Shown: in pieces, positions 56,231 through 60,731 of the stretch | How positions within the stretch are numbered: position 1 is the first letter of the stretch | How the letters are laid out: every line of letters begins with the position of its first letter | Origin: Haladaptatus paucihalophilus DX253 | GTDB lineage: Archaea; Halobacteriota; Halobacteria; Halobacteriales; Haladaptataceae | Assembly (NCBI RefSeq): GCF_000376445.1 | Contig: NZ_AQXI01000001.1 | Location: 1,582,962 to 1,646,961, forward strand | Direction of reading: 5' to 3' | Length of the DNA stretch: 64,000 bases | Program-made: the position numbers and the translations under genes | The notes under the pieces: generated by a model | The model's database searches: none | The model's input: only the letters and a program-made list of their open reading frames with translations | Told to the model about the DNA's origin: nothing

Positions 56231-56887
56231 ATGAGCGTCATCGCGGAGTTCACCATCAGTGCACCGGACCTCGTACTGACAGCGACGCTCGAAGCGGTCC
56301 CGGAGATGACCGTCGAACTCGAACAGCAGATGGCGAGTTCGTCGGAAACCGCGCTCCTCATCGTCTGGGCGACGGGCGGAGACTTCGACGCGTTCAACGA
56401 CGCGCTTCACCACGACTCGACGATAGAGTCGCACTCTATCGTCGAGGAGTTAGACGTTCGAAAACTGTATCGACTTCGGATGAATCGGGAGGCGCTGTTC
56501 CCGGTGTACCCCGCCTACCAGGAGCTCGGTGCCGTTCCAATGGCGGGCCACGGCGCGGACGGGACGTGGACGCGGCGAGTCCGCTTCCCCGAGCGGACCG
56601 GGCTGGTCGAGTTTCAGCAGTTCTGCAACCGAAACGACATCGCATTTTCCCTCGAACGGTTGTACACGCCGGGCGACAGCGAAACGGCGTTTCAGCTCAC
56701 GGAGCCACAGCGCGAAGCGCTCGTGTCGGCCCACGAGTCGGGCTACTTCGAAGTGCCACGCGACGCCACGCTCTCGGAGTTGAGTTCGACGCTGAACATC
56801 AGCAAACAGTCGGTTTCCGAGCGATTGCGGCGGGCACAATCCCGCCTCGTCGAGAACACCATTCTCGGGAAACGAAAGCAGTCATGA
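56231..56887 (+). CDS. Bat/HTH-10 regulator
   Basis: The 218-residue protein has an N-terminal region (SVIAEFTISAPDLVLTATLE) and a C-terminal HTH-10 domain (LTEPQREALVSAHESGYFEV, SSTLNISKQSVSERLRRAQS) as in the Bat family. It lies 41 bp after lrp on the same strand. Target unknown. Confidence 0.86.
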   Translation: MSVIAEFTISAPDLVLTATLEAVPEMTVELEQQMASSSETALLIVWATGGDFDAFNDALHHDSTIESHSIVEELDVRKLYRLRMNREALFPVYPAYQELGAVPMAGHGADGTWTRRVRFPERTGLVEFQQFCNRNDIAFSLERLYTPGDSETAFQLTEPQREALVSAHESGYFEVPRDATLSELSSTLNISKQSVSERLRRAQSRLVENTILGKRKQS

Positions 56888-57011: not shown

Positions 57012-57341
57012 ATGCCCACCTTAGACAACATCGACACGCCCGCACCGTCCGTCATCTTCTCCACACTGGCGAGTTCGCGCCGACGACTCGTGCTTCGGCA
57101 ACTCATCGAACACGGACCATCGCTCACCGTACCGACCCTCGCCGAGCGGATTGCCGACCAACAGTCGGATACCGACCAGCGGCGCGTGTTCGCCCAACTT
57201 CACCACAGCCACCTCCCGAAACTCGAAGATTCGGGGATAGTACGTATCGAGGGCGACTGCGTTACGCTCGAAGAACATGCGGATGCCATCGAACCATACC
57301 TGCTGCTGGCAGAGCGGTACGACTCGATGCACGAAAAATAA
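57012..57341 (+). CDS. DUF7344-type winged-helix protein
   Basis: The 109-residue protein matches the DUF7344 domain start (IFSTLASSRRRLVLRQLIEH) and ends with a second helix (LHHSHLPKLEDSGIVRIEGD). It has no membrane helices, unlike the other member at 23635. A DNA-binding role is inferred. Confidence 0.8.
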   Translation: MPTLDNIDTPAPSVIFSTLASSRRRLVLRQLIEHGPSLTVPTLAERIADQQSDTDQRRVFAQLHHSHLPKLEDSGIVRIEGDCVTLEEHADAIEPYLLLAERYDSMHEK

Positions 57342-57405: not shown

Positions 57406-57541
57406 ACGGGCACAGCCCGTTCGACATTCGAGGTTTCTTCGAAACCTCGCTTACATAGTCTCTGTCAGGCAGAGCCTGACGGGCTATGTAAAATCAGTCG
57501 TTGACCGATTTTACATAGCCTTGGCCGAGGCAACCTCGGCC
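57406..57541. repeat. Cluster of five back-to-back triloop inverted repeats
   Basis: 57406-57420 ACGGGC-aca-GCCCGT; 57429-57449 CGAGGTTTC-ttc-GAAACCTCG; 57464-57480 GTCAGGC-aga-GCCTGAC; 57482-57520 with arms of 14 plus 3 bp and one A-C mismatch around GTT; 57523-57541 GGCCGAGG-caa-CCTCGGCC. Gaps between them are 8, 14, 1 and 2 bases. Confidence 0.9.
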
Positions 57542-57571
57542 GTGCAATGAAATATTTCCTTTCGTCGAAAT

Positions 57572-59260
<1,689 letters not shown>

Positions 59261-59287
59261 AGTCATCACGTTCGTTGATTGCGATTC

Positions 59288-60074: not shown

Positions 60075-60111
60075 ATCCCCGCCGGCGCGTCAAAGACGCG
60101 CCGTTAGGGAT
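60075..60111. repeat. Nested inverted repeat, 3-nt centre (AAA)
   Basis: Inner arms CGGCGCGTC/GACGCGCCG (60083-60091, 60095-60103) around AAA; outer ATCCC/GGGAT (60075-60079, 60107-60111). Both share midpoint 60093. Confidence 0.85.
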
Positions 60112-60119
60112 TCCTTGGC

Positions 60120-60142
60120 CCGGAAAATCGAAGATTTTCCGG
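60120..60142. repeat. Inverted repeat, 10-bp arms, 3-nt centre (GAA)
   Basis: CCGGAAAATC and GATTTTCCGG flank GAA; C-GAA-G is a known very stable DNA triloop. Confidence 0.88.
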
Positions 60143-60160: not shown

Positions 60161-60235
60161 GGTGGTTGTCTCACCGGCCGTTTCGGGTGGTTGTCTCACC
60201 GGCCGTTTCGGGTGGTTGTCTCACCGGTCGTTACG
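60161..60235. repeat. 25-bp tandem repeat (three copies) starting at the GNAT stop codon
   Basis: Units of 25 bases (ggtggttgtctcaccgg followed by c/t cgtt t/a cg) occupy 60161-60185, 60186-60210 and 60211-60235. The last unit contains the TAA of the minus-strand GNAT gene (60231-60233). Confidence 0.9.
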
Positions 60236-60731
60236 GGTCGAGTTCCGTCCGATAGACGTACTCCGGGGCGCTTCCCGCTTCGAGTTCCGAGATTTGCTCG
60301 CCGACGCGTTCGAATCCGCGCGCTTCGTAAAACCCGATTGCGCCGTCGTTTTCGGCGAAGACGGTCAGTTCGAGCGTCGTTGCACCACGGGATTCGAGTT
60401 CATCGGAGACTATTTCGAGGAGTCGGGTTCCGACGCCGCCGTGCTGACAGTCCGGCGAGACGTACAGGGTCGAGAGGTCGGCGACCGGCGTGTCGGCAAC
60501 CCCTTTCGAATAGCCTACAACGATGTCTCCGTCCACCGCGACGAAATACGGACGAGTAGGGTCCGTGACCGCGGTCTCGACGGCATCTGGCGTGTACCAC
60601 GTCGAGAGTTCGGCTTCGATGACCGTCGTCGAAAGGAAATCAGCGTACGAATCGAACCAACTCCGCCTCGCCACGCGGCGAATGTCCGGCACGTCCGACA
60701 CACATGCGGGACGAATCTCTATATCACCCAT
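60231..60731 (-). CDS. GNAT N-acetyltransferase, RimI-like
   Basis: The 166-residue protein has DIEIRPACVSDVPDIRRVAR at the start, LSTLYVSPDCQHGGVGTRLL (acetyl-CoA loop) and a C-terminal IGFYEARGFERVGE. These are typical GNAT features. It lies between KH and Rio1 genes; N-terminal protein acetylation or small-molecule acetylation are both possible. The stop codon is inside a 25-bp tandem repeat. Confidence 0.88.
   Translation of the reverse strand: MGDIEIRPACVSDVPDIRRVARRSWFDSYADFLSTTVIEAELSTWYTPDAVETAVTDPTRPYFVAVDGDIVVGYSKGVADTPVADLSTLYVSPDCQHGGVGTRLLEIVSDELESRGATTLELTVFAENDGAIGFYEARGFERVGEQISELEAGSAPEYVYRTELDP

Follow-up and report, generated by a model that had tools for sequence, protein, structure and literature searches.

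The 3' end of a thermosome gene of Haladaptatus paucihalophilus DX253 carries an array of short hairpins made up largely of a recurrent two-hairpin unit. As judged from sequence comparison, the structure is real, its form is conserved and it is linked to the 3' ends of thermosome genes. Aligned units show that pairing is kept by compensatory change, including at bases of the stop codon and of the alanine wobble position, while the position of the array, its single orientation and its link to codons point to RNA as the level at which it would act. The array (57406-57541 of the window, i.e., the whole stretch of 64,000 nucleotides analysed) may be a structured element at the 3' end of the thermosome mRNA, which is transcribed from the minus strand, and would most likely serve as a 3'-end barrier, a reading of moderate confidence.

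Layout of the array and its surroundings

The thermosome (Cpn60/TCP-1) gene lies on the minus strand at 57572..59269 (Pfam PF00118, E 1.8e-183; the upstream end is that of the ORF caller) and finishes with the codons GCA ATG TAA (57580-57572). A DUF7344 gene on the plus strand (57012..57341; Pfam PF24035, E 3.2e-15) converges on it. The minus strand also includes a T-tract (57334-57338, in the context TTATTTTTCG), a probable terminator 68 nt past the last hairpin that is likewise found in two congeners. On this strand the array has the thermosome stop codon on one side and the T-tract on the other. Haloferax transcripts terminate at comparable T-stretches (PMC7237163), which makes it likely that the array belongs to the 3' UTR of the thermosome gene. 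That the T-tract sits beyond the array agrees with the first-pass annotation, in which a T-tract terminator was said not to explain the hairpins.

The same annotation described five hairpins with 3-nt loops, and their positions, loops and arm lengths are all confirmed by the sequence. These are hairpin E (57406-57420; 6-bp arms; plus strand ACGGGC aca GCCCGT, minus strand ACGGGC tgt GCCCGT), hairpin A (57429-57449; 9-bp arms; plus CGAGGTTTC ttc GAAACCTCG, minus CGAGGTTTC gaa GAAACCTCG), hairpin B (57464-57480; 7-bp arms; plus GTCAGGC aga GCCTGAC, minus GTCAGGC tct GCCTGAC), hairpin C (57482-57520; 18-bp arms with one mismatch; plus-strand loop gtt, minus GGCTATGTAAAATCGGTC aac GACTGATTTTACATAGCC) and the hairpin of unit D (57523-57541; 8-bp arms; plus GGCCGAGG caa CCTCGGCC, minus GGCCGAGG ttg CCTCGGCC), with spacings of 8, 14, 1 and 2 nt. 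The mismatch of hairpin C, A-C on the plus strand, becomes a G.U pair in RNA of the minus strand, from which the thermosome is transcribed. The extent first given to the array is right for these five hairpins and overlooks a sixth, imperfect stem of the minus-strand fold, in which the last two thermosome codons, GCA ATG (57575-57580), are predicted to pair with the 3' UTR (57544-57549).

On the minus strand the hairpins are arranged in two-hairpin units, each of which begins at an Ala-Met-stop copy (GCN ATG TRA), and two extra hairpins (A and E). Unit D (57520..57580) includes the stop-codon stem, an AT-rich inner stem and the hairpin at 57523-57541, and matches the covariance model R1 (below) at 57579-57520 with 36.7 bits. 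Unit CB (57450..57519) is formed by hairpins C and B, the latter as its second hairpin, and matches R1 with 75.4 bits (E 5.8e-18). Three minus-strand copies of ATGTAA mark the boundaries: the genuine Met-stop (57572..57577), the start of unit CB (57511..57516) and the end of unit CB ahead of hairpin A (57451..57456), the last two forming the direct repeat D7. The initial remark that this is not one repeat copied is correct for the hairpin arms, which differ, and incorrect for the two-hairpin units, which have one common architecture. The hairpin A module is also noted immediately 3' of thermosome stop codons in other genera.

The array folds strongly as RNA (z-scores of -9.9 for the plus strand and -11.3 for the minus strand) and as single-stranded DNA (z -9.5). 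A chance origin is ruled out by the type of random-sequence control proposed at the outset: when the intergenic region is shuffled 20,000 times with dinucleotides preserved, no shuffle has four or more non-overlapping perfect triloop hairpins (arm of at least 6), and the best has 3.

Triloop hairpins are also found elsewhere in the window, including two (9 and 10 bp arms; 60083-60142) that are 3' of a minus-strand gene (60231-60731) that appears acetyltransferase-like by eye, and a perfect 14-bp palindrome with loop cgc (56416-56446) within the coding sequence of an HTH_10 regulator. Across 464 kb of the same genome, which include the window and two stretches chosen for holding hits, perfect repeats with a 3-nt loop and arms of at least 8 number 38 versus 13 in a Markov model; 21 are intergenic, of which 20 lie 3' of one or more genes and 1 lies between divergent genes. 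Thermosome 3' flanks (130, not selected via the array) have 46 triloop hairpins per 100 versus 0-6 for any other loop size, and a second sample, which is a subset of the 130, has 35 triloops versus 0-8 for other loops. The flanks of control genes have 5-7 triloop hairpins per 100. Two general accounts of these counts are rejected. Triloops are enriched in this genome and slightly in the genus, with no excess in random stretches of other genera, which excludes a general haloarchaeal rule for 3' ends. A plain effect of high expression is likewise dismissed, since EF-2 3' ends have some triloops (5/30) and those of EF-1A and proteasome alpha have none.

Covariation and distribution of the two-hairpin unit

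The unit is recognised by side-by-side reading of thermosome 3' flanks. It spans about 60 nt, has two hairpins with loops usually of 3 nt, and follows the consensus GCN ATG TRA AATCGGTC nnn GACCGATT TCCATNGRC CGTCAGGC nnn GCCTGACG CAGYC, after which another GATGTRA is found. The 5' arm of the first hairpin consists of the two final codons plus the stop codon, whose pairing partners lie at the beginning of the 3' UTR; the second hairpin is GC-rich. When compared with the tags of REP/REPIN elements, hairpin B often starts with CGTC, bases that are paired.

Model R1 was built from 16 units, some of which were picked because they fold; thus, 19 further units found by the model were scored separately. 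In the training set, 91.8% of cells are paired, compared to 75.9% in shuffles and 28-36% when the units are slid, and 65 double-change cells are observed versus 21.6 in shuffles, with double changes at 17 pairs. The 19 units outside the training set have 88.5% of cells paired and 83 double-change cells versus 28.9, in an alignment (A3) that is fitted to the model and leans towards structure. Among all 35 units, the second base of the stop codon is paired with its 3'-UTR partner in 32 (A-U 16, G-C 14, G-U 2, unpaired 3) and the alanine wobble base in 28 (U-A 14, G-C 8, A-U 4, G-U 2, unpaired 7). Units that did not train the model also show a conserved structure upheld by compensatory changes, subject to the same fitting of the alignment. 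No T5 run of the kind expected of archaeal T-stretch terminators is present inside the 28 units checked, and no Rfam family scores above its gathering score, the only matches being sub-threshold microRNA hairpins (E 0.14 to 4).

Signs of the strand that folds are slight. Over all pairs, G.U and A.C are about equally frequent on the sense strand (31 vs 29), and removal of the three helix-end pairs, an exclusion chosen after the counts were known, leaves 29 vs 17, a weak sign of the RNA strand. Sense-oriented loops are GAA in 10 cases and TTC in 8; thus, no loop preference of the RNA strand is apparent.

A covariance scan of haloarchaeal genomes, as had been suggested, finds R1 matches in 39 of the 195 genomes of the order, distributed over 21 genera. 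The best-match loci that were fetched are thermosome 3' ends in 28 of 29 cases, with the stop codon usually at model positions 7-9. Fifteen further matches include six thermosome ends, while the others comprise, among them, two-palindrome inserts in coding genes and one dnaK 3' end. In the H. paucihalophilus genome, the full unit is found at the two thermosome loci only and does not form the dispersed copies typical of REP/REPIN elements; single-hairpin look-alikes (GTCAGAGC) at 8 other places belong to another repeat. The proposal of a structured RNA 3' end is upheld as to structure by this conserved position and by the covariation. A description of this element was not found in the open-licence literature.

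Gain and loss of units, and related palindromes

A second thermosome gene of the same genome has a 3' array that is 94-97% identical to that of the window, though the proteins are only 58% identical. The paralogue array is without hairpins B and C (60 bp between the direct repeats TTACATAGTCT/TTACATAGCCT) and has an additional, different hairpin that carries the core of hairpin C. Its hairpin E differs from the window copy in all three loop bases (the paralogue loop is gaa) and is identical in the arm bases. The same modules make up arrays, with different copy numbers, in two of eight congeners (G007 and G008), in G007 in the order unit D, hairpins A and E, a second unit D, unit CB and hairpin A; the remaining six have no array at this place. 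As R1 matches are limited to 39 of the 195 genomes and the array is missing from these six congeners, the array is dispensable. The thermosome tail of G007 (L016:3180-3280) appears frameshifted in a Gly-Met repeat upstream of the expanded array.

An empty and a filled site are noted in Haloarchaeobius. In Haloarchaeobius iranensis the site reads GGCGGCGCGATGTAAGCCCGGCCGACG, while in Haloarchaeobius sp. FL176 the same flanks enclose a 120-nt insert (units D and CB) that precedes GATGTAAGCCCGGCC, with 83% identity beyond. The insert, which was positioned by direct string comparison as the MAFFT gap placement was wrong, has an ATGTRA repeat at either end, part of which may belong to the element. 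These sites imply that units come and go as blocks with ATGTRA boundaries. The aligned sequences show that units have been gained or lost at an empty site and exchanged from one paralogue to another. The arms are not unique sequences, as their modules are found again, differently ordered and in different numbers, in the paralogue and in other genera. The alternative first idea of an expanding repeat is supported by recurring units with ATGTRA boundaries whose copy number and order vary between genomes.

Related palindromes are observed beyond the thermosome unit. Two tandem hairpins with loops usually of 3 nt occur inside long open frames at 19 sites (L459-L477) in 15 genomes and 11 genera, for example TCAGAACTC nnn GAGTTCTGA, TCGCC, CGTCGAGC nnn GCTCGACG. 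These elements have one orientation and frame throughout and encode peptides like VEQSSTGDQNSSSSDD or DERSSSGNQNSESSDD; a reversed control pattern gave 0 hits. The hosts include PurU, the Pol D large subunit, a helicase, an MFS protein, an M20 peptidase and a histidine kinase, and PurU and PurD show inserts relative to solved homologues. By sequence they look like Rickettsia palindromic elements (RPE), and no archaeal description of such elements was found in the open-licence literature. In the H. paucihalophilus genome, GTCAGAGC nnn GCTCTGAC occurs in 8 copies (L449-L457) with differing loops, one with a G.T pair; most are within a longer dispersed intergenic repeat with common flanks. Thermosome 3' ends of another family (f8; L295-L314, L279, L277 and L270) have a different fold, with an outer stem TTTTGC/GCAAAA enclosing a triloop hairpin, and four genomes contain this fold as a dispersed repeat, with at least 15-28 copies. 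The dnaK 3' end (L435:645-870; Pfam HSP70) has a long stem whose loop contains the stop codon, then CGTCAGAC gta GTCTGACG and then a degenerate second copy.

Function and origin of the array

REP hairpins in bacterial 3' UTRs are generally taken to protect or define mRNA 3' ends, and the thermosome array may act in a comparable way. Units would have accumulated head to tail, with a copy of ATGTRA at each boundary and the single hairpins A and E added after them. Within the mRNA, the hairpins could form a barrier that shields the chaperone message from 3'-5' exonucleases and may help to define the mRNA end upstream of the T-tract. The bacterial REP, BIME and REPIN elements and GTAG-/CGTC-tagged palindromes resemble the unit in that they are short, often paired palindromes with small loops that cluster at gene 3' ends and are in some cases intragenic (PMC3733652). 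By contrast, REPs are scattered in tens to thousands and, when tagged, are reported from bacterial phyla only (PMC3733652), whereas the unit is restricted to the 3' ends of thermosome genes, shares bases with the stop codon and preserves its pairing as the arm sequences change.

The main rival is a mobile or once-mobile palindrome of the REP/REPIN, PATE or RPE type, for which the thermosome Met-stop would be the insertion site and which would have no host function, its arms being kept paired for recognition by a transposase; this is possible, if doubtful. A mobile origin of the unit is plausible in light of the Haloquadratum PATEs, which are apparently mobile, haloarchaeal and without a transposase and which, in the terminal-only form of about 52 bp, consist of a fused pair of near-terminal palindromes (PMC3119063). 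The filled and empty Haloarchaeobius sites with ATGTRA at both insert ends, the near-identical array at a distant paralogue, the related two-palindrome units in frame within unrelated protein genes and the loop orientation with no RNA bias are consistent with such an element. PATEs, however, are dispersed, derive from IS605-type elements and make no target duplication (PMC3119063), whereas ATGTRA flanks every thermosome unit and a covariance-model search with whole units found no IS605-type parent with these ends, nor another parent transposon. The scatter expected of a REP or PATE family is also at odds with the 28 of 29 best loci at thermosome 3' ends and the two own-genome loci, and the first hairpin is fused with coding and stop-codon bases. 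RPEs are translated inserts, and like the thermosome unit are palindromic units that persist in or beside genes; nearly all of the thermosome unit, however, is 3' UTR, and the elements inside open frames are the closer look-alikes.

A cluster of terminators or insulators, in which RNA polymerase travelling in either direction is slowed or halted by successive RNA hairpins, would suit the site between convergent genes and the 1-14 nt hairpin spacing, yet is improbable. Hairpin clusters free of U-tracts are proposed as bacterial terminators (PMC8355165), and hairpins are described upstream of 503 Haloferax termination sites, with 59% termination in vivo for one hairpin that was tested (PMC7237163). 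Like the array, these are consecutive hairpins 3' of a stop codon; unlike it, they are not gene-specific and have no codon covariation, and the accessible parts of both reports include no stop-codon-embedded two-hairpin unit (PMC8355165, PMC7237163). A first stem that begins within coding sequence is odd for a terminator; moreover, the T-tract is beyond the array, T5 is missing from the 28 units and other haloarchaeal genes end without such arrays. Mutation could by itself produce apparent covariation if template switching at fold-back hairpins perfected imperfect palindromes with 3-nt loops, as the matched arms and variable loops of the 8 recurrent GTCAGAGC nnn GCTCTGAC copies and the 14-bp triloop palindrome at 56416-56446 might suggest. 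This is very improbable, as it leaves unexplained the confinement of the unit to thermosome 3' ends, its recurring fixed stop-codon register and why divergent intergenic regions are nearly free of triloop repeats. Least credible is a role at the DNA level, be it a cruciform, a protein-binding site or a chromosome boundary. The fold is strong as single-stranded DNA too, but the unit keeps to a single gene family, orientation and reading position with arm sequences free to vary between genera, and the cruciform boundary of the first-pass annotation gains no specific support.

The preferred reading is that of a structured element at the thermosome mRNA 3' end. A broader and rather unlikely extension is that of one haloarchaeal family of two palindromes with 3-nt loops, which would invade protein genes in frame (in one orientation and frame) and would have been domesticated as tandem, stop-codon-anchored RNA structures at the 3' ends of chaperone genes (thermosome, and dnaK in one genome), with the last codons joining the fold. 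To our knowledge, few structured archaeal 3'-UTR elements have been described. An RNA fold that uses the Ala-Met-stop codons of a chaperonin in about 20 genera and grows by accretion of units would provide a concrete way to study the ending, protection or regulation of mRNAs in haloarchaea, organisms with good genetics. The element may represent a selfish palindrome turned gene-specific RNA element, an idea made testable by its filled and empty sites and its compensatory changes.
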